This document shows positions 1-23,726 of a DNA stretch of 34,676 nt, piece after piece. Origin of the DNA: a virus; the IMG/VR virus record IMGVR_UViG_3300012988_000029, positions 1 to 34,676 of that record; one strand, given 5' to 3'. The stretch's first letter is position 1. Every line of letters starts with the position of its first letter. The notes below the pieces were generated by a model, which was not told where the DNA came from, searched no databases, and saw only the letters and a program-made list of their open reading frames with translations. A program made the translations under genes and the position numbers.

Positions 1-3000
1 AAGTTTTCTATCAAATACCTTACCATAGAATTCTTTAGTTTCTTCCTCATTTCCTTGTAATTTAACAAGTTTAATATTACCTTTTTCATCTATATATACA
101 GACTTTAGATACATATTAAGTTTATCTATATCAAAGTCAGAACCAGCTTTTGTAGTGATTTCTGAAGGAACTACCACTGTTCTTCCCATGAAGGATGGTA
201 GGAACCCTTTTACTTTGAAAACCTCAATTGAGCTAGAAGACTGTGTAGGAATACGGAAACCTACACCTGTAAGAATAGACTGTCCTTCTTTGGAATTATT
301 TAAATAATTAAGAATTTGCTCGTCTGTCTTAAATTTCCCTTTAGAAAGTTTATCTTTAAACCATGCAGGAAGTAATACTTCACAATATCTTTTTCCATCT
401 TCATCCTCGTAAAACTTAAGTTTAGGAGAAGTTGTACTTTTGTTAGAATTAATAGATTCCCAAAGAGTTACAGGTACTTGAACATGTGATCCTCCATTCA
501 TCTTAGGAGACACAATAGCCTTATCTACCATAGAGAAAAGAATATCCCTTATTTGGATATAATGAGTAGATGCTTCAAAAGGAATTCTAAATTCCCCTTT
601 TTCATCTAATTCTAATACATCTTTAGCATTTTCAGACATTTCTCTTTTTAGAAGCTCTCTTTTAAGAGTTTGAGAAATAGCTGTTTTGTCCACTAATTTG
701 AATAATCCATTCAAGTCTTCAATACCTAATTCTTCTAAAAGGTTATTATATGCATTTTTATGCATTCTATTGAGAATATCTCTATTTCTTTCATATTCCT
801 TTTTAGCAGTTTCACTAATAGCTACACCTCTATCAAACATATCCAAGCTAGAAAGCTTGGTAAGCTGAGATCCTCTAGTTTGTTCTTTAGGACCATCATA
901 AGAGTTTTCTACTTGTATACCATATATATTCCAAGGAATCTGTTTGGTATTATTGAATGGTTCTGTGTTAAATGAGCCATTTTCATTATATAAACTGTGA
1001 AGACCTTGAGTTCCTACTTTTTCACCACTTTCTGTTATCACATATCCCACATTTTGTCTCCACATTTTAATATAGAGTTTTTCAAGGTTAGTTCCTTGTA
1101 CAGCCTTGTAATAAACAGGCATCTGTGAGAATTTATGCAATACTATCTCAATTTTATTGTTATTCTGAATGCTACCAGAAACAATAGGTTTTAACACTTC
1201 TATAGTATAATTTGGCTCTAGTGTATCAACAAGTTTTTCATCCTTTTCTTTTAATCCTTTAGTTTGATAGATGTAATTAGGAAGATTTAGTCTTGTATAA
1301 GCTAATTGCCATTGATGCCATTTTTCAGCTTCTTCACTCCATTGACCATTCTTTATTTTAACCTCTCTATAAGTACTATCCATCATCCAAGAAGCAGCAT
1401 CTGCTTCATTAGTTTTACCCATTAAAGGACCATCTATCTCTACATCAGAAATAGTTACAGAGTTAGTGTAAGATTTAAAGTTATGATAACCAACTTCCTT
1501 TTCATCAATTCCTTCATTGAAGTTTTGATTCAAATAAGTGTTTAACTCATCTGTATCAAATGTTGTTCTTCTAGGAGATAAGAAAGATTTAATACGTTTT
1601 GTTTCATCTAATTGATTATTCTTTATTTTGAATTGATAAGGATCACCAAATAATATTTTGTGAAACTCTATATTATTGATAATATAGTTTGAATTAGCAA
1701 ATTTCAATACATCATATAATTGGGATGTAGATAGAGAATATTTGTTAATTTTTGAATCCTTTGCAAAATTGTCATCTAGAGATGAGAACGAATACTCCTC
1801 TTCTCCTAATTGTGTGATTTCGTTGTCTTTTAATAGTAATTGTTTTGTTTCCTCCACTGTACTATCAATCCATTCTTTTATAGAATCATTAATTTCTGTT
1901 ATATTTTCATCAATTACAGTAAAGATTTCTTCATCTGTAGCATCTTCTTTTAGAAGAGTATTAATCTTCTTTAATATACTAGGGGGAAGAATATCTTTGA
2001 ATATTCTAAGCTCTTTTCCTTTATTTCCTATATTCTTTAAATATTCTCTATTCTCTTTAGCAAGAGATACATCATCTTTTAGATACCCTTTGAATATATC
2101 ATAAATCCTTGAAAAATTACTTCCATCATCAAAAGGAATATTATTTCCCATATCCATCATCCATTCTGTGGAGCTATCTGCTGGTACAAGAATATAATAT
2201 CTACCATTTAGATTTTGATTGATTTCCTGTACAAGTCTATCTCCAAGAGACATCTTATTAGTAGGAATCTCTTTATTATTATCTAAATTGATGGTTCCTT
2301 GTACATATCCCACCTTAATTTTCTCTATTCTTCTACCTTCTTCATTAAAGAAGAGTCCTCCTTTTTTAAGGATTTGGCTATTTTGTGAGAAAACATCCTG
2401 TAATTCAGGTCTATCTTTCAATAAATCATCAAGAGTATTGGCAGAATTAAATGCATTTTCAAATACAGAAGCAGCATTATTATCTGCAAAAGATTGCATT
2501 CTCTTACCATCAATTCCTATAAATGAAGGATCTTGGTTAGGATTAGTCACTTTTACCAAAAGTTCAGCTAATGTATTTAAAGGAGTATTTATTTGTAGAG
2601 TTTTCCCTGTTACAGACATTACATCTTTATTACTATTAATATATGTGTATATAGAAGAAACTGCATTTCCGAAGCTTTTTACTTCTTCAGTTTTAAGTCT
2701 TAAATATACTTCTATAGGAAATTCAACACCTATTTTAGATAGGAATTCAATTTGTTGCTTAGGAGTTTTAATTGGAACAGTAGAAGATTTAGTATATGGT
2801 TTAATATCATATACATACAATTTACCCTTACCATTTATCCACTCTTTGGTCTGATTATAAGTAAACTCATTTTCTGAAGAAACTCCCTCAGACTTTAGTA
2901 TTCTTTCTTTTCCTCCAGCTTCAGAAATGGTTAGAATTCCTCTATTATTAACTAAAAATTTCTCATCTCCAAAATCAACTATTGCCGATTTTCCTATAGG

Positions 3001-6000
3001 AATTCCTATTTCTTTAAATTGGGCTTCACTTCTAACTGTAGATGTTTTCTTACCAGATTTTATTTTTTCAATATTCTTTTCCTGCATCTGTATAGATGCT
3101 TTTGGTAAACTTATAGATAAATCAACTTGGAAGGTTTTCGTAGATTTATTATACTTAACTATTCCCTCAGGAGATTTGGCTAATTGTCTAATATTAGCTA
3201 CCCATCCATCCTTAATACTCTTAATATTAGTGAATAAATTGGCAGAAGATGTGTATACTTCTCCATCTTTTACATATTGAATGAAAGCATCAGGTTTTTG
3301 CTTAGTGAAAGTTTGATAGAAATTAATGAAAAGCCTCCAATCCTGAGGTTCAAATTTAGAGAAATCAATCTCCATTATATTCCTATTTCCCTTTAATCGA
3401 GTAAAGAGCCTTACATAATTAGCATCATATTTAGCTAAATTAAGAAGCTTATCTGTCATTTCACTCACTTTGTTAGTATTAGCTAATTTGTCCAACACTG
3501 TAGCAAAGGCTCTGCTGAAGTTAAGAAGTTTATATCCAAATACAGAAGATTGTTTCAATTCTGGGAGTTCTATATTTGAAGAACCTTCCTGATTCTGAGC
3601 AACAGCTTCTGTTAAAGTTCCTAATAATAGCTTTACAGGGTATGGAGAAGATTTCTTCCAATTAGTAGAAAAAGGTTCAGGAGCATAACTTCTATTTTCC
3701 TTATCTTCATCATTTATTGTTAGAACATTATCTTCATCAAATTCTATTTTAAAAGTACGTAGGAAATCCTTGGTTCTTTTAACCAATCCTTCAAATTCTT
3801 CATTATTAAGCTTATCTGCTTCAGAAGGATTCAATTTACCTTCTTCAGTATACATATCCTTTATTTGTCCAAATATATCATCAGATGTGATTTTCTCTGG
3901 AGAGAATAATGAAATATTGTCTTTGAATATAATCTGGAAAGCTCTAGCAGTAATATCTTGTACAAAGTCATTAGTTTGTTGTTCTGATAAATCACCAATC
4001 TTTCTATATTCAGAGAATTCATTTTTAGCTTTCTCTGGAACTACATATTCCTTGAATTTCCCTGTATCAATAGCTTTAAATAGCTCTTGTTTCTTAGAAG
4101 GTTTATTAATGAATTGTTTGAAGAATTCAATTATATTCTTGAAGAATTGTAAGATCTTTTGTCCTAGTGATTTAGTAGAAATCTTACCAACTCTATAATC
4201 AGCAAAATCATCAGCTATTCTTTCTTTAGCTTGTAAGTCTGTAGCTTCATCATAGTTGATTTTCTTACCAGAAGCTCTATCTATGAATTGCCCTTTCTTA
4301 GATTTGAATTCATCTAAAATACCTTGTTTTTCATCTTCTCTTAAAAAGGCTTTCCATACACCCTCAAATGCTTCATGGTATTCTGTTCCCTTTATAGCCC
4401 ATCTATAGAACTTAGCTACACCATTTTCAAAAGCCCCCCATGCTCTTTCATTGTCATGAGTAATAAGAATGTTTTCTAATATCTCATAAGGAATACTTGG
4501 AACATTTTCCTTGTGCCATTCTTTAAATAACTGAAGTTCTTCTTCTGTTATTTTAGGAGAATTTTCTCCTATTCTTCTATATTCACTTTTTTCAGGAGAA
4601 TTAGCAGATGTAAATTTTTTAGGAGTAGATAATGCTGTATTTATAGGTTTTCTACTGTATTGAGTAAATAAACCTGATCCTTGTACTAGATTTAAATAAC
4701 CAGACTCTCTCATAGTCTGTATTTTTTCAATTAATCTTTTTGCAGGAGCAGTATTTGGATTATTTTTACCAATATCAGATAATGCCTTTTTTATATCCTT
4801 AGTAGGCATATTTAGATCTAGTCTTAACTCAGATACATCTCCAGTAGGATTAAAATGGCCCTCTTTATCTAACTGTAAAATAAAATCTTCTATAGATGAA
4901 GTAAGTACATCTATTTTAGCAGGAGCTTGTGGTTTGGGTTCTAGTTGTTTCTGTAAATCAAAAGAAATCCTTGTAGCAAAGAATTGTGTCACAAGCTTCT
5001 CTTTTTCAGCATTTTCATCAAATATCCCTGTTTGTCTCAAAATGGGAATAATTGTTCCATTTACCAACTCTTCATTTTCAGCCACCTTAGCTGTAGTTTC
5101 ATTTGGATAGACAGTTACATATATTTGATCTTTATCACCTTTTTTAGCTGTGAAGATAACAGGACCAGCTTTAGCTGTAAATGTGTTTTGTGTCTTATTA
5201 TCAATAATATAGTCCCCTAGTTTAGGAGCTTTTTCTTCTTCCTTCACCTCTATTTTAGCAGGTTGTTGTTTTACCTCTACAATAGGAAGATCTATTCCTT
5301 GTACAGTAGCGTATTTCTGTTTAAAGTTATATGGAACTGCTTCTGTTGGTTTATTTACAGCAGTGGATAAAGGAATATCATTAATACTTCTATTAGAGCC
5401 ATCTGGATATTTAGTCGATAATAGGTAGGATTGATAGTTTTTCCAGGTACGAGAAGAGAATCCTTTATCTGTAGAAAAAGGTTCCAAGAAAGGTTCATCA
5501 AACTCCTTCTTCAATGTAGTATCATTTATCTGGTGATATACTTCTTGAAGTTGATTAACAATTTCTTCTTCATGGGCAGCCAGATTGGTTAAGTCATATT
5601 TCTTACCACTAAAGAAAAACTCCATATTATCAGTATCTATGAATATTTGATTACCTGAGGTATCTTTAGTTTTTCTCCAATAAAGAACATTTTGCAGGAA
5701 TTTAGCTCCTAGTTTATCTAACTTAATAGATTCTCCTTTATTAGCTTGTTTTTTAACATATTCAGAAAGACTTTTCATCACTCCAAATATAGAGACAGCT
5801 TGTTGTTTATTAAACTTATTGTTGTTAATAAATTGAAGAGTATCATCATATTGTAATACAGCTACACCTTTAGGAAACTTTAAATTTTGTCCTTGATGTG
5901 TGATTGTATCTGTAGTGGCTGTTATAATAAGTCCTTTCTGTGTAGCTATTTTATCTTCAGGAATTAGATTATTTCCTATAGCGAATCTATCATTATTGTC

Positions 6001-9000
6001 TGTTATAATAGGAATACCTCTAGAAATAGAGAATTTATAGATTTCGTATTTGTTAGCAGGAAGAGAGAACAATTGCTCCCTTTTAGCTTTCCATCTTTTA
6101 GATTGTTCTATAGCTTCATCTTTTTCATCATTTCTATATCTCTCTTTACCATTACTCCATATAAGAGAGGGGGTGGGCATTGTAGAAAACACTACGTTAT
6201 TCAAGTCTATTTTATCTCCTAGCTTTCCTGTTCTCTTACCGTTTTCATCAATAAAGTGTAGGTTTTTACCATCTTGTTCTACATAAATAGCAGCTACCAA
6301 CCCATTATCTATATTAGTATATTCTGAAGGATTTACACCACTATTTTCAAAAGAAAGAGAAGTAAGACCTTCTACACCTAGAGATTTCTCCTGATTAGGA
6401 GTAATAAGAATAACTCGTATTTTCTCCTTATTTGGGAAATTTTTAACATTATTAAGAAGAGTGTTCTGTCTAATAGTTTGAGGTTTTATCACCTCTTTTT
6501 CTTGGGACTCTGAAGTTGTAGAAATAAATAGTTCACTAGCAGATTTCTTCTTATCTTCAGGTTCAATATCTTTAAACTCTCCTGGTGTAGGGGTAGTTCC
6601 TGATTTCTTTTGAAGTTCTTCTTGTTGTTTATCTAATTCTTCTTTATGTTTTTGAAGTCTTTCTTGATCTGTTAATACTTTCTCATATCCTTTTAATTGT
6701 GATAGGGGGATATTTTGAATATTTTCAGAAAGATCTTCCACTTTCACTGTACCATCAGGATTAATAGCTAGTACCTTAACAGATGTTAAATCTGTAAAAT
6801 CAGAATTTAAATCTTTAGCAGCCTGTATAGCTTCTTCTTTAGTAGGGTAGAAAGTAGTGTTTCCAGCACCATCTATCACCTTCCATCTATCTTCAGCTAC
6901 TTTTCTATACTTAGCCTTTTTAAGCGAAGGAATTTGATATTCTCTACCAACTTCTATTTTTTCCTTTTCTCCAGCTTTATTTTCAAATTCATCAGAAATA
7001 TCCTTATTTTCCTTTACTTCTTGTATAGGAGCAATAATAGGTTTTTCTTTTAATTTCTCCTGTTGATCGAAATACTTTACAAATCCTTCTTTAGAAGATA
7101 GAGCATCAAATAGATTTCTAGTCTTTTCTTTAAGATGAGAAAGTCTATCAGCATCATGACCTAATTTCAATAAATCTATAGCTTGTTCTGGAGAAGTGAT
7201 TCTATCTCTAGTGTCATCTTGTCCATTAAGTTCAAAATTCAATAATTTATCAAATAATTTACTGTCGTATTGTCCACTATTCAAAGAAAGGTTAATTCTT
7301 TCAGAAAGAGTTCTTAGACTCTTTACTTGATTTTTTAAATCTCTCTTATCCTTAGTAGGAGCAGATTCTATGATAGACTCACTGATTTGTTTAGCTCTTT
7401 CTTCATAAGATTCACTTAATCTCCTCAACCCTTCTTTACTACTAACTTCTTCTAATACACCTAATGTAACTGAAGGATTTAGTTTAAATACAGATTGTTG
7501 GATAGATTCAAGTCTATCATTAATAATAGGAGATTTAGAAGCTAAATAAGTTAACTCTACTTTATAATTATTGAATGTTTTGTAATTCTCAGACTCTTTT
7601 GATTGCTCTTCTGTTTCTGGGTTAGTAATGAGGTTGAATGGATTTTTGAAAGTTCCATCTATGCTATCATAGCTTTTCTTTATTTTATTAGATTGGTCTA
7701 CAAGACTATCAATATAAGAAGCCACTGTAGACTTATTAGAAGAATTGAAATCCATTCCAAAGGTTTTTTCAAAGTCTTCTTTTGATAATCCTTTTAACAT
7801 ATTCAACTGTTCCAATGTAACATCATGCATTTCAGAAGGAATTCTTGACATTACAAAGTTAAAGAACATATCATCCTTTAAATTCTTATATCTAAATATA
7901 TCATTTTTAGCTACTGCTTCTTTCATCTCGTTAGCAATACCTACAGAATTTAATGTATCTGTATATTGCTTTTCAAGAGTAGAAGTAAGTGCATGTTCAT
8001 TAAGAATATTGATAGAGGATTGAAGTCTAACATCTTTTCCTTCACCTCTTATATTATCAATTTTTCCCATTACTCCTCCAGAAATAAGAGCGGAGATAGC
8101 TCCTACCACCATGTTTTCTATACCTTCCGTAGTACCAAATTGATCTTTAAGTCCTTTTACTGTGGAATCTATTGTTTCATTTAAACTATCCCAAGTAGCA
8201 GGATTTTTATATTTTCTTGTATAATAATCATATACTCCTTTTTCGGCAGCATATTGTCCACCTTCTTCGTATACACCTTCTGATAGGATATTAGGAACAG
8301 AAGGTCTAACTGAAGACCATACTCTATCAGCTATATTACTAGGAGCTTTTCTTTCAAAAACATCCAATGATCCTTTTTGTAACCCTATTTTACCAGCATC
8401 TTCTATTTCTTTAGTGAGAGAACCTTGAATAGCTTTTTCAGAAGAAGTGAAAGATTTAAATAAGTTACCAAATTGTACAGCATTACTAACAGTTAAAAGA
8501 GCCATATTAATACCAAATCTGGTATTCATAGCATCTTCAGCATAATTATCTATTTGTTTTTGATCCTCTCCTGTAGGATTATCTCCTCCATGTTCTAATT
8601 GATACTGCTTTACAAGAGTATCTTTTACTTGTTTATATCCATCTCTAGCTTCAATGGCTGCTTCAGTTCTAGCAGATCCATATATAGATGTTGCCCATCT
8701 AAATCCATCAGAAATATTTGTAGCTGCTGACATCTGTGCCAGTTTCTCGATATTCAGTAAGCTTTTCTCAGATTTTCCTAAAGATTTAGCTAGAGTTAAT
8801 GTTTCTTCTAGTTTATTAGTACCACTAAATATCTTATTTAAATAGAGAGAAGCTTTACCAATTTGGTTAGCTACTAGTGGAATTTCTCCCAATCCCTCTG
8901 TGGCAGCTCCAACAACAGCATCTTGAGCTAACGCACTTCCTATAGCACCTGCTGTAAATCCAAGGTTTTTAATAATCTTATCTCCCCAGAAATTAGCACT

Positions 9001-9573
9001 TCCTGTAAATCCAGGTATAATGGATGTGAAGGGGTGTTCTTTTTCATACCTAGAATAATAGTTAGGAAGAACATCTTCTATATTCTTTAACCAATTATCA
9101 ATAGATGCTTCATAACCATCAGGTTCTCCTGATAATTTAGAAACCTCACCATTCTTAATAGCTGATATTGTATTTGGAATTGTAGCAAAACCTTGAGCAA
9201 ATGTACCTACAGCTGTAGCCCCCATTTTAATAGTGCCATTAGCAAGTCTATTGTACCAAGGTTGTTGAAGAGCATTAATATTCTCAAGATCTACACCTCT
9301 TTGATAGGTTGTATAGCGTTGATTTTCAAGAAGTTCTTTTTGAGGAATAGAAGAAGGGGAAATACCAAATCCTGTAGATTTAGCACTCTTGGCACTATCT
9401 GCAAGTTCTTTCAGAGACAATCCTCTTTTCAAACTACTACTAACTCCTAATGCAGGAGATATTATATTTGGGTTAAGTTGAGAAAGAGAAGGGCTACCTA
9501 AAGCAGGAGCAGGTGACTCTAAATCAGTGTTACCAATAGTATTATCTACAAGCTCATTATCGAAAATTGCCAT
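1..9573 (-). CDS. Giant virion RNA polymerase polyprotein, crAss-like (C-terminus beyond window)
   Basis: The frame is open for 3191 codons from the ATG at 9573 to the left edge, so the gene is partial at its 3' end. The ATG overlaps the stop of the preceding gene (TAATG). The active-site motif DFDID is at residues 3146-3150 (bases 124-138), preceded by GFRIPTQ (3105-3111) and KAGS. This matches the crAss-like virion RNA polymerase (phi14:2 gp66 type), which is packaged and transcribes early genes after infection. Upstream in order: a conserved N-terminal part with FWGDKIIKNLGF (from residue 195), a charged coiled-coil-like stretch (about 965-992), a zincin-like HEAFE (1733-1737), an ASCH-like segment (about 2158-2260) and a polymerase part with NIEFHKILFGDP (from 2634). 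About 3100 residues before the active site suggests that the polymerase is fused to cargo domains that can be separate proteins in relatives. The polymerase call is secure; domain limits are approximate. Confidence 0.93.
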   Translation of the reverse strand, partial: MAIFDNELVDNTIGNTDLESPAPALGSPSLSQLNPNIISPALGVSSSLKRGLSLKELADSAKSAKSTGFGISPSSIPQKELLENQRYTTYQRGVDLENINALQQPWYNRLANGTIKMGATAVGTFAQGFATIPNTISAIKNGEVSKLSGEPDGYEASIDNWLKNIEDVLPNYYSRYEKEHPFTSIIPGFTGSANFWGDKIIKNLGFTAGAIGSALAQDAVVGAATEGLGEIPLVANQIGKASLYLNKIFSGTNKLEETLTLAKSLGKSEKSLLNIEKLAQMSAATNISDGFRWATSIYGSARTEAAIEARDGYKQVKDTLVKQYQLEHGGDNPTGEDQKQIDNYAEDAMNTRFGINMALLTVSNAVQFGNLFKSFTSSEKAIQGSLTKEIEDAGKIGLQKGSLDVFERKAPSNIADRVWSSVRPSVPNILSEGVYEEGGQYAAEKGVYDYYTRKYKNPATWDSLNETIDSTVKGLKDQFGTTEGIENMVVGAISALISGGVMGKIDNIRGEGKDVRLQSSINILNEHALTSTLEKQYTDTLNSVGIANEMKEAVAKNDIFRYKNLKDDMFFNFVMSRIPSEMHDVTLEQLNMLKGLSKEDFEKTFGMDFNSSNKSTVASYIDSLVDQSNKIKKSYDSIDGTFKNPFNLITNPETEEQSKESENYKTFNNYKVELTYLASKSPIINDRLESIQQSVFKLNPSVTLGVLEEVSSKEGLRRLSESYEERAKQISESIIESAPTKDKRDLKNQVKSLRTLSERINLSLNSGQYDSKLFDKLLNFELNGQDDTRDRITSPEQAIDLLKLGHDADRLSHLKEKTRNLFDALSSKEGFVKYFDQQEKLKEKPIIAPIQEVKENKDISDEFENKAGEKEKIEVGREYQIPSLKKAKYRKVAEDRWKVIDGAGNTTFYPTKEEAIQAAKDLNSDFTDLTSVKVLAINPDGTVKVEDLSENIQNIPLSQLKGYEKVLTDQERLQKHKEELDKQQEELQKKSGTTPTPGEFKDIEPEDKKKSASELFISTTSESQEKEVIKPQTIRQNTLLNNVKNFPNKEKIRVILITPNQEKSLGVEGLTSLSFENSGVNPSEYTNIDNGLVAAIYVEQDGKNLHFIDENGKRTGKLGDKIDLNNVVFSTMPTPSLIWSNGKERYRNDEKDEAIEQSKRWKAKREQLFSLPANKYEIYKFSISRGIPIITDNNDRFAIGNNLIPEDKIATQKGLIITATTDTITHQGQNLKFPKGVAVLQYDDTLQFINNNKFNKQQAVSIFGVMKSLSEYVKKQANKGESIKLDKLGAKFLQNVLYWRKTKDTSGNQIFIDTDNMEFFFSGKKYDLTNLAAHEEEIVNQLQEVYHQINDTTLKKEFDEPFLEPFSTDKGFSSRTWKNYQSYLLSTKYPDGSNRSINDIPLSTAVNKPTEAVPYNFKQKYATVQGIDLPIVEVKQQPAKIEVKEEEKAPKLGDYIIDNKTQNTFTAKAGPVIFTAKKGDKDQIYVTVYPNETTAKVAENEELVNGTIIPILRQTGIFDENAEKEKLVTQFFATRISFDLQKQLEPKPQAPAKIDVLTSSIEDFILQLDKEGHFNPTGDVSELRLDLNMPTKDIKKALSDIGKNNPNTAPAKRLIEKIQTMRESGYLNLVQGSGLFTQYSRKPINTALSTPKKFTSANSPEKSEYRRIGENSPKITEEELQLFKEWHKENVPSIPYEILENILITHDNERAWGAFENGVAKFYRWAIKGTEYHEAFEGVWKAFLREDEKQGILDEFKSKKGQFIDRASGKKINYDEATDLQAKERIADDFADYRVGKISTKSLGQKILQFFKNIIEFFKQFINKPSKKQELFKAIDTGKFKEYVVPEKAKNEFSEYRKIGDLSEQQTNDFVQDITARAFQIIFKDNISLFSPEKITSDDIFGQIKDMYTEEGKLNPSEADKLNNEEFEGLVKRTKDFLRTFKIEFDEDNVLTINDEDKENRSYAPEPFSTNWKKSSPYPVKLLLGTLTEAVAQNQEGSSNIELPELKQSSVFGYKLLNFSRAFATVLDKLANTNKVSEMTDKLLNLAKYDANYVRLFTRLKGNRNIMEIDFSKFEPQDWRLFINFYQTFTKQKPDAFIQYVKDGEVYTSSANLFTNIKSIKDGWVANIRQLAKSPEGIVKYNKSTKTFQVDLSISLPKASIQMQEKNIEKIKSGKKTSTVRSEAQFKEIGIPIGKSAIVDFGDEKFLVNNRGILTISEAGGKERILKSEGVSSENEFTYNQTKEWINGKGKLYVYDIKPYTKSSTVPIKTPKQQIEFLSKIGVEFPIEVYLRLKTEEVKSFGNAVSSIYTYINSNKDVMSVTGKTLQINTPLNTLAELLVKVTNPNQDPSFIGIDGKRMQSFADNNAASVFENAFNSANTLDDLLKDRPELQDVFSQNSQILKKGGLFFNEEGRRIEKIKVGYVQGTINLDNNKEIPTNKMSLGDRLVQEINQNLNGRYYILVPADSSTEWMMDMGNNIPFDDGSNFSRIYDIFKGYLKDDVSLAKENREYLKNIGNKGKELRIFKDILPPSILKKINTLLKEDATDEEIFTVIDENITEINDSIKEWIDSTVEETKQLLLKDNEITQLGEEEYSFSSLDDNFAKDSKINKYSLSTSQLYDVLKFANSNYIINNIEFHKILFGDPYQFKIKNNQLDETKRIKSFLSPRRTTFDTDELNTYLNQNFNEGIDEKEVGYHNFKSYTNSVTISDVEIDGPLMGKTNEADAASWMMDSTYREVKIKNGQWSEEAEKWHQWQLAYTRLNLPNYIYQTKGLKEKDEKLVDTLEPNYTIEVLKPIVSGSIQNNNKIEIVLHKFSQMPVYYKAVQGTNLEKLYIKMWRQNVGYVITESGEKVGTQGLHSLYNENGSFNTEPFNNTKQIPWNIYGIQVENSYDGPKEQTRGSQLTKLSSLDMFDRGVAISETAKKEYERNRDILNRMHKNAYNNLLEELGIEDLNGLFKLVDKTAISQTLKRELLKREMSENAKDVLELDEKGEFRIPFEASTHYIQIRDILFSMVDKAIVSPKMNGGSHVQVPVTLWESINSNKSTTSPKLKFYEDEDGKRYCEVLLPAWFKDKLSKGKFKTDEQILNYLNNSKEGQSILTGVGFRIPTQSSSSIEVFKVKGFLPSFMGRTVVVPSEITTKAGSDFDIDKLNMYLKSVYIDEKGNIKLVKLQGNEEETKEFYGKVFDRKL

Positions 9574-17177: not shown

Positions 17178-20100
17178 TTACCCACCGTTAATATTTATTG
17201 ATCCAGATATTGAAAAATGATGTGCTGCCACAGTTGGAATGGTTATTGTTATAACAAGATTAAATCCTCCAGCCCCTGCTACCGTTGCAGGGTATACAAT
17301 TGATGTAGTAGTATCAAGAAACTGAGCACTATTGCTTCCAACTGTTAAAGGTACTCCTGACATATTTCCATCAAAATGGAAACTAAAGTTTGTAATTCCT
17401 GATGCTTGTGATGAACTAGAGGAAGTAACGGTTACAGGAGTTGGTGATATTCCTGGAATAGTTGAAGCTGATAAATTAACATGATTGGTTGAGCCTAAGT
17501 TTATAGTAAATGCATTTCCTCCACTTGTTCCAATTGTAAAAGATCCTGTAAACGTATTGTCAGAAGAAGTAGTAGTAGTAGAACTTGTTGGTGGAGATGT
17601 AGTAGTAGTGGAAGTAGTTGAGGTAGTGGTAGAAGTTGTAGATGTTGTGCTTGTACTAGTTGATGTTGTGCTTGTAGTAGAAGTTGTGCTTGTAGTCGTA
17701 GTAGTAGGAAGAGGCATTTCTTCAAATGCTATGATTTCCAAGTCACATCCATCGTTTATTCCAGAATAGAAGAAATTATTTTCTGCTATATAATAATTAG
17801 GAATATAACTATGAAAACTTATCCAACTTTGTGTATTAATATTATAAGATAGTGTCCAAGATTTATTACAAAAATAGTTACTATCTGTTAAGTCAATTAG
17901 TTGAATTGTAGTTAAAGGATTTCCTTCGGATTGAGGATAAGTATGAATTATATAAAATTCTTTAGTATCAGAATTATATTTAATATCCTTACTTAATGGA
18001 ATATAATCCAATTTAGATATAATAATTCTATCAAATTTACTATCATATACTCCATGTAACCCTGTCCCTGCAAAATTATTATCAATATCTACAGTTGGAA
18101 AATATCTAAGAATTTCAAAGGCTAAGTGATCTGTGAAGAATCTATTTAATCCACTCCCAAATTGGGAAAGATCTTTAACAGAATTTCCTGATATGAGAAA
18201 GACTTGTCCTCTTTTTGCATCCACTGTTATTTGTCCTTGAGGTATTTTTAATAGGAATTTATGTTGACTTCCTACAAATCCCAAATCTGTTTCAGCAAAA
18301 TCAATAGGAGGACTACTTCTAAATAATGTATCATTTCCTAACCATGCAGCTTTAGGATTGGAAGTATCTACTGTCAACAATGTATTATATAATAAACTCT
18401 TATTTTCAAATCTAGCTAATATTGCTTTATTTTCAATTCCATCTAAAGAGGTGAGTTTTCCATAATTTTGAGGGAAATCAAAATAAGAAATTGGTTTGTA
18501 TATTAACCAACTATTTATCTTATTATCTGTAAAACTCTGTTGCGCTTCAGAATATATAGTTCTGAAAGGAAAATGAGTGAAACACAATTGTTCCTCCCAA
18601 TTAATAGGGAGGTGGGAGAAGAAATTTTCTTTATTTTGTTTGGAATATCCTACATTATAATAGTATGTATTATCTTGAGCGATAGGAACAAATGATTCTT
18701 GTACCCAATCATCAGGAATAGATTTAGTTACATGAGGATAAAAATCCCCTTCTCTATTATTAAACGCTTGTCTCAAATCTACATTTATAGAAGATTCGCA
18801 ATAAAATGTAGGAATTCCATATGCAAACATATACATTTTTCCATCATAATATGTTCTAGATGGATTTATTATAGGAGGAGTTGCTGTTGGATCAGGAGCA
18901 GGTAACTGATTATTAGGACAATCTAAATAATGAGCCTTAACTGAAATAAGATTTTTACCATAAGCTGTTCCTAATCCACCTGTATTATAATCATACAATA
19001 CAGACCTTGCAGAATGCCAATATTGAGGATAGGCGACATTACCTATTTCATCATAAAATACATCACTATCATCAGGAGCACCCACTCTATTATCTATAAA
19101 AAAGGGAAGTTTGGTTTTGAAAGAGAACTTACTTATAAATGTATCTCCTCCAAAAATAGTAACTGTTGATAAATTATCACCTAAGAATGATTGGAAGCCT
19201 GTATCAATGGTTTCATAGGAATACATTTGACCCCATTGATTTAAAATAACATCTTTAATAGACCCATAATAAGAAACTACACTAATATCAAATTGATTCT
19301 GAGGAATAGAGCAGTCTTTTTGTGAATTAACAAATCTGGATTTATCTGTTATAGCACTGATGTTTCCAGGTAATATTAATGAAGGAGTTTGACTATCAAA
19401 TGGTAATGGGGACTTTATCTCATTCGTCTTTAAATAAATAGAAGACTCCCTTTGATAGTTATTTACAACTATATTATTATTTTCATTTACACTTTGAACA
19501 GCAGGAATCAAATATTGTACTATATCTAATTCTCTTTGTTTTATACCCAATCCATTATCTACATTTGCCCAATAATTGTAACTTGCTATAGAATTATAAC
19601 TCCATCCATAGTTCTTTCTAGTAATTCCATTTATGTATATAGTAAGATATGCTTGATATGCGGTAAACATTGCTGTAGCATTGAAGGGTGCTGTTATACT
19701 AGCAATATTATAAGATGAGGATAAAGCATCCTCTTGTGCTTCTTTACTTAAAAGTTTATATAAAGCATTTTTCTTAACTTCTACAAAATGTGCTTTTCCT
19801 GCTCCAAATACAACATTTTCTAATTTAAGAATCGTTCCTAAAAATGGTTGTCCGAAAGATGTTTCCGGTGAATTGAATACATATCTATATTTACTATCGT
19901 CTGTATTAAAAGCCGATAGATTATTAGGGTAACATAGAGGATTTTTGAATGTATTTATCTGTGCATAAGTTCCACTATAGGGGAAAGGTACAGTAGGATG
20001 AGTACCTACTTTAACATTTATTGTTTGAGGATTATTCTTATAAACTACTATAGATTGTCCTATATCATTAATATCTGTATATGCAAATACAGTTGCATTA

Positions 20101-23087: not shown

Positions 23088-23726
23088 TTATTTTTTATTA
23101 TATTTTATAGGAGTATAAATAGCTTCTTCTGGACTCATTCCTCTATCTATTCTACTTTTCAATGTCTGTTGATGTATATTGAACTTCTTAGCTAAATCTA
23201 CAAGAATCCATTTTTCTTTATTGAAAGAAAGAAATATAGTATTTCTTTTGTTTCTATCTTGTTCTTTTCTAGTAGCCCACTTACAATTTTCTAGATAATA
23301 ATCTCCATTTACATCAATTCTCTCTAAAGAATAGGATTTATCTGGTTTCTTTCCCATGTCTTTGTAGAAATTTTTAAAATTATTCCACCTTTCACATGTT
23401 TTTATACCTCTACCTCCATAATTATAATAGAATATATTATTAGGATTCTGACATCTAGATTTCATGGATTCCCAAGATGAATATTCTGAAGAATTACTCA
23501 TATTATGTCGAGTGATTCTTTTTAGCAACCCGTCTCTTCTAGTGCATCCACAAGATTTAGTTCTGCCGTTTTTTAATCCTGATATTCTAGTTATGAATTT
23601 TCTACCACAAAAACACTCTATTACAGCCATTCTATATTTTTGAAATCCTGTAACTTCTTTTTCATGAAAGTCTTCATTTATAAAAGTTAAATTTCCAAAC
23701 TTATATCCTTTTTCGTATTTTGTCAT
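23088..23726 (-). CDS. HNH-type homing endonuclease inserted in the structural operon (212 aa)
   Basis: Residues 38-61 hold two cysteine pairs (CFCG and SCGC), a zinc-finger-like start common in phage endonucleases of this lineage. Residues 85-142 carry the conserved core: W, MKSRCQN, YGGRGIKTCERW, DMGKKP, SLERIDVNGDY and NCKWAT, followed by EQDRNKRN. The C-terminal part (about 170-205, DLAKKFNIHQQTLKSRIDRG) looks like a helix-turn-helix for DNA recognition. Such free-standing enzymes cut cognate genomes lacking the gene and spread by repair. It is wedged between the IHF-like gene and the adaptor gene with one-base gaps on both sides and appears intact. It has no obvious virion role. The class is confident; the cleavage site is unknown. 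Confidence 0.9.
   Translation of the reverse strand: MTKYEKGYKFGNLTFINEDFHEKEVTGFQKYRMAVIECFCGRKFITRISGLKNGRTKSCGCTRRDGLLKRITRHNMSNSSEYSSWESMKSRCQNPNNIFYYNYGGRGIKTCERWNNFKNFYKDMGKKPDKSYSLERIDVNGDYYLENCKWATRKEQDRNKRNTIFLSFNKEKWILVDLAKKFNIHQQTLKSRIDRGMSPEEAIYTPIKYNKK

Follow-up and report, generated by a model that had tools for sequence, protein, structure and literature searches.

A giant open reading frame that runs off one end of a viral contig encodes DFDID close to that end, with RIPTQ a short distance ahead. This raises the question of whether the motif marks an RNA polymerase active site, and whether the R-x-P-T element corresponds to the one that precedes NADFDGD in cellular beta-prime, in which an Arg senses the ribose of the incoming nucleotide. 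The window (the whole stretch of DNA analysed, a 34.7-kb fragment) carries a crAss-type structural gene block. The reading frame occupies 1..9573 on the minus strand, with 3191 amino acids readable, and is open at the contig end. Its features are as follows.

1..9573, minus strand: giant open reading frame, polymerase core in the C-terminal part; the bridge helix and trigger loop would lie beyond the contig edge.
7474..9573, minus strand: N-terminal part (residues 1-700), homologous to the crAss001 virion protein gp47 (hmmsearch E 2.3e-55).
844..1194, minus strand: predicted beta-like double-psi barrel DPBB-B, about residues 2794-2910 (AlphaFold2 model and Foldseek match; approximate boundaries).
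1018..1020, minus strand: Lys2852 (in GEKVG), which may be the first of two catalytic Lys in the beta-like barrel; K186 of alignment A1 and K307 of A4, both invariant.
856..858, minus strand: Lys2906 (in GSQLTK), which may be the second catalytic Lys in that barrel; K240 of A1, invariant, and conserved at >=90% in A4.
67..492, minus strand: predicted beta-prime-like double-psi barrel DPBB-A, about residues 3028-3169 (AlphaFold2 model, pLDDT 80, matching 6vr4; approximate boundaries from predicted strands).
241..255, minus strand: RIPTQ, the R-x-P-T element, residues 3107-3111; R3107 is the putative counterpart of beta-prime Arg425 (hhalign register with NRAPT).
142..144, minus strand: Gly3144, at the site that Asn458 takes in beta-prime, with the Asp triad starting two residues later; column G155 of alignment A2, invariant.
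124..138, minus strand: DFDID, the Asp triad, residues 3146-3150; invariant in 27 sequences, aligned with DFDID of 6vr4 and expected to hold Mg2+.

The two motifs lie exactly where the earlier note had placed them, at residues 3107-3111 and 3146-3150 with a spacing of 39, and each is the sole instance of its pattern (R.PT and D.D.D) in the 3191-aa protein. The contig edge falls 41 residues past the Asp triad; uncut relatives continue for 721-1379 aa beyond it and are mostly 3772-4977 aa long. In the AlphaFold2 model, a strand ends just before R3107 and is followed by a long strand (3116-3125), a further strand (3132-3135), a short helix (3138-3143), the DFDID loop and a strand at 3152-3156. 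This predicted order of elements agrees with that of beta-prime.

The giant protein is, as judged from sequence homology and the predicted fold, a crAss-like single-chain two-barrel RNA polymerase. A phmmer search of the whole 3191-aa protein against the PDB gave no match, and the polymerase was not recognised in it by Pfam or PHROGs; profiles were therefore needed. By tblastn, the last 1000 aa matched phi14:2 gp66, annotated as 'Catalytic RNA polymerase subunit' (E 9e-22), crAss001 gp50 (E 4e-20) and further Crassvirales. Profile A5, built from 34 environmental relatives and containing no phi14:2 sequence, matched the crystal structure 6vr4 of the phi14:2 enzyme with E 1.4e-58 and no other structure convincingly; in this alignment the two Arg coincide, and so do the two DFDID motifs. 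The corresponding match of profile A1 was dropped as evidence because A1 includes phi14:2, which makes it circular. Neither A1 nor A5 matched QDE-1 at E<=10.

The model of residues 2546-3191 (pLDDT 80) matched 6vr4 in Foldseek with E 3.9e-27, prob 1.00 and TMq 0.59. The model of a 1200-aa core from one relative (pLDDT 83) matched the same structure with E 1.6e-30 over 1226 columns, and this match takes in the part with the bridge helix and trigger loop. Phi14:2 gp66 is known to have both double-psi barrels. Neither outcome that the earlier note had named as refuting, RIPTQ placed far from the DFDID loop or no double-psi barrel around DFDID, arose with the predicted fold, which matches that of gp66; the assignment of both barrels to one chain rests on the fold match of residues 2546-3191 and not on a strand-by-strand tracing. 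The window protein thus shares with gp66 (PDB 6VR4) the homologous core and fold, both barrels in one chain, DFDID, the invariant Lys pair and an R-x-P element 39 residues upstream, which reads RIPN (RIPNQ) in phi14:2 and RIPT here. In the native numbering of gp66, this Arg is R1322 and the first Asp is D1361. The two differ in that gp66 has 2180 aa, whereas the window chain exceeds 3191 aa and carries its polymerase behind a gp47-like domain. The DxDxD catalytic motif has already been marked for crAss-like polymerases (PMC7886860). With the motif known and 6VR4 solved, the observation is correct but largely expected. The protein is ordinary within its known family, and the remaining interest lies in the retention of the Arg and the loss of the Asn.

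The N-terminal half of the chain is homologous to crAss001 gp47, so that, going by these sequence matches, a virion cargo protein and a polymerase are fused in one chain. In addition to residues 1-700, part of residues 1300-1900 also matches gp47 (E 4e-15). In crAss001, gp47, gp49 and gp50 are virion cargo (PMC10172136). The polymerase core of crAss001 gp50 is homologous to that of the window protein, with RVPTE 39 residues ahead of DFDVD; however, gp47 is a separate gene on the opposite strand in crAss001, whereas the window lineage carries it in the polymerase chain. Other contigs share this fusion, since the N-terminal profile drew on fused relatives as well as on the window. In cr108_1, the middle part is likewise fused to the polymerase. 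Large virion genes adjoin the polymerase, as in phi14:2, and the structural block includes a major head protein (PHROG 11589, E 4e-32) together with tail and virion proteins.

The same block contains an HNH endonuclease gene (23088-23726, minus strand; PHROG 374, E 1e-52), possibly a homing endonuclease. Among annotated proteins, the major head protein of the window had its best match in Leptolyngbya phage Lbo-JY46 (PP438436; E 1e-34). This phage is syntenic with the window, with large genes in a similar order, and has a gp47-like protein (E 3e-58). No polymerase core was detectable in the giant ORFs of this cyanobacterial phage.

The R-x-P-T element was then compared across relatives. All 79 distinct motif segments have R-x-P exactly 39 residues ahead of the first Asp; they were drawn from 13 IMG/VR relatives, 80 further ones (overlapping the first set) and named Crassvirales, part of the loci having been gathered by the RxPTQ pattern, with either RxPTQ or GSDFDID sufficing. 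The fourth residue is Thr in 72 segments and Ala, Asn or His in the other seven, all of which keep R and P. The same spacing of 39 was present in crAss002, p-crAss LMMB and ctbg_1. Among 27 diverse aligned sequences only eight columns are invariant, namely G, R, P, S, G and three D; R and P are thus as invariant as the three catalytic Asp.

The earlier note had described an R-x-P-T element about 35 residues ahead of NADFDGD in beta-prime, and this was confirmed: RAPT is present at -35 in 80 of 80 bacterial loci (mostly Proteobacteria), and also in the beta-prime of Bacillus, Phocaeicola, Nonomuraea and Mesomycoplasma. An hhalign comparison paired RIPT with RAPT and DFDID with DFDGD, across a four-residue gap. 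The score was weak (E 0.062, probability 0.9%), and this register alone would not be sufficient to prove homology. It suggests, at that weak score, that R3107 corresponds to Arg425 of beta-prime, which does most of the 2'-OH sensing in E. coli RNA polymerase. There, discrimination against 2'-deoxy substrates depends mainly on Arg425 and to a minor extent on Asn458: with R425K, selectivity against 2'dGTP falls 17-fold in binding and 25-fold in incorporation, whereas with N458S it falls only 4-fold, in binding (PMC7862312).

Bacterial beta-prime therefore shares with the window protein an R-x-P-T element followed by DFDxD, in the same hhalign register. The two differ in spacing (35 and 39 residues), in subunit arrangement (a separate beta-prime subunit as opposed to both barrels in one chain) and in the catalytic motif, as NADFDGD with its Asn458 is absent from the window protein and GSDFDID is found instead. 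The Pfam beta-prime profile PF00623 gave no match to the window protein at E<=10. The position of Asn458, two before the first Asp, is occupied by Gly in 27 of 27 family sequences and by Asn in beta-prime. The proposal that the same active-site wall is kept in the phage enzyme was thus upheld for the order, the spacing, the profile register and the two-barrel site, but not for the Asn458 contact. Because the counterpart of Asn458 is an invariant Gly, the ribose contacts would be only half kept.

The loss of this partner, the substitution of Thr in seven of the 79 segments, and the presence of Lys where the window protein has Arg in at least one plant RNA-dependent polymerase (TKNP in RDR2) would all be compatible with a purely structural role, in which R-x-P-T is conserved as a turn into a barrel strand or as a template contact, without R3107 reaching the NTP ribose. 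We consider this unlikely. The Arg is as strictly invariant as the catalytic Asp, whereas an Arg kept for structure would be expected to be replaced, by Lys for example, in some family members, and it stands in the same register as Arg425. A role for R3107 in sensing the ribose remains the preferred reading.

That the likeness is specific to beta-prime, as the earlier note had implied, was not supported, and this specificity was rejected because other two-barrel enzymes carry R-x-P: RSP at -43 in YonO, RNP at -38 in P23-45 gp96, RSP at -45 in QDE-1 (spacing counted by hand), and RNPT or RNPS at -39 in jumbo-phage beta-prime. The last were read from the segments, as in one jumbo-phage locus the automatic search had picked a later, unrelated R-x-P. 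Given its presence in YonO, gp96 and QDE-1, R-x-P is, on these motif comparisons, a general feature of two-barrel RNA polymerases.

The eukaryotic RNAi polymerases QDE-1 and RDR2 resemble the window protein in having two barrels in one chain, and they give the next-best fold match. QDE-1 also has R-S-P ahead of the triad and, like P23-45 gp96, Gly at -2. QDE-1 and RDR2 differ in that no sequence similarity to the window protein is detectable, the triad reads DYDGD or DLDGD, the spacing is 45 and the enzymes are RNA-templated. P23-45 gp96 and SPbeta YonO are likewise single-chain two-barrel phage RNA polymerases with R-x-P ahead of the triad (RNPV at -38 and RSPH at -43, respectively), and outside the motif no likeness in sequence to the window protein was seen. 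Like the polymerase of the window lineage, gp96 shares its chain with a large virion protein, in its case a tape measure protein.

The full R-x-P-T tetrad is common to beta-prime, whereas QDE-1 has RSPA and gp96 has RNPV, as might be expected if the phage enzyme were a captured and fused cellular beta/beta-prime pair with an active site derived from beta-prime. This origin is very improbable. After phi14:2, QDE-1 (E 1e-4, prob 1.00) and RDR2 fit the window model better than beta-prime chains do (3e-3 or weaker), and the residue at -2 is Gly, as in QDE-1 and gp96, and not Asn. In addition, a published structure-based tree groups crAss-like RNA polymerases with the single-chain phage and RNAi enzymes and sets the multisubunit polymerases apart from that clade (PMC10770324).

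Finally, composition predicts about 0.6 occurrences of D.D.D by itself in a chain of 3191 aa, but chance or convergence in an unrelated virion protein has a negligible probability, given the sequence and fold homology to a solved RNA polymerase, the family-wide invariance with fixed spacing, which places the motif beyond chance, and the probability of only about 0.001 by composition for R.PT at a suitable distance within a 16-position stretch.

The preferred reading, in which R3107 senses the ribose, is considered very probable as a whole. By homology, the three Asp of DFDID would hold the catalytic Mg2+. Going by other two-barrel RNA polymerases, K2852 and K2906, the invariant Lys pair in the beta-like barrel upstream, would be catalytic, binding the 3' end of the RNA and the phosphates of the substrate. 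R3107 would take the place of Arg425 within the active-site cavity, where, on the basis of homology and the E. coli mutagenesis, it would contact the 2'-OH of the incoming NTP and so favour NTPs over dNTPs. Cellular enzymes have an Asn that assists this Arg; the phage enzyme has Gly in its place. As the polymerase is fused behind a gp47-like virion protein, it is probably a packaged enzyme that is ejected together with the DNA and would then transcribe the early genes.

The sugar-sensing Arg of cellular transcription would thus persist, at a constant distance from the Asp triad, in phage polymerases of extreme divergence and, since it is retained, the choice between RNA and DNA substrates probably works alike in them. 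The invariant Gly at the Asn458 position allows a clean mutational test. We also entertain, with somewhat less than even confidence, the idea that in the whole crAss-like branch, QDE-1 and gp96 the Arg of R-x-P alone reads the sugar of the NTP, this Arg being the ancestral sensor of all two-barrel enzymes and the Asn a later addition in the multisubunit polymerases.

Several further observations were made on inserts and relatives. In cr108_1 (NC_055878), a group I intron (17518-17813; Rfam RF00028, 80 bits, E 1e-20) lies within the codons of the catalytic motif; this intron and the gp47-like fusion are more unusual than the motif itself. Removal of the intron between 17517 and 17814, the putative splice sites, would yield D-YDID in frame, and the record annotates the interrupted polymerase as two separate hypothetical proteins. 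In the window protein, a segment at about 2787-3090 (minus strand; residues ~2162-2262) includes residues ~2190-2262, which have no counterpart in 14 aligned relatives. The start of this segment, near residue 2162, resembles an ASCH domain, but too weakly (E 0.088) for an inserted domain of that kind to be accepted. In two loci (L106 and L108; Bohxovirus, cr125_1), stops under table 11 break the frames around the motif, possibly reflecting stop-codon reassignment, which is known in crAss-like phages; the window ORF needs no recoding. A Bacteroides uniformis plasmid (CP054203, 57 kb) was found to carry, at 301-1011, a divergent beta-prime-like segment with 37% identity to E. coli over 234 aa.
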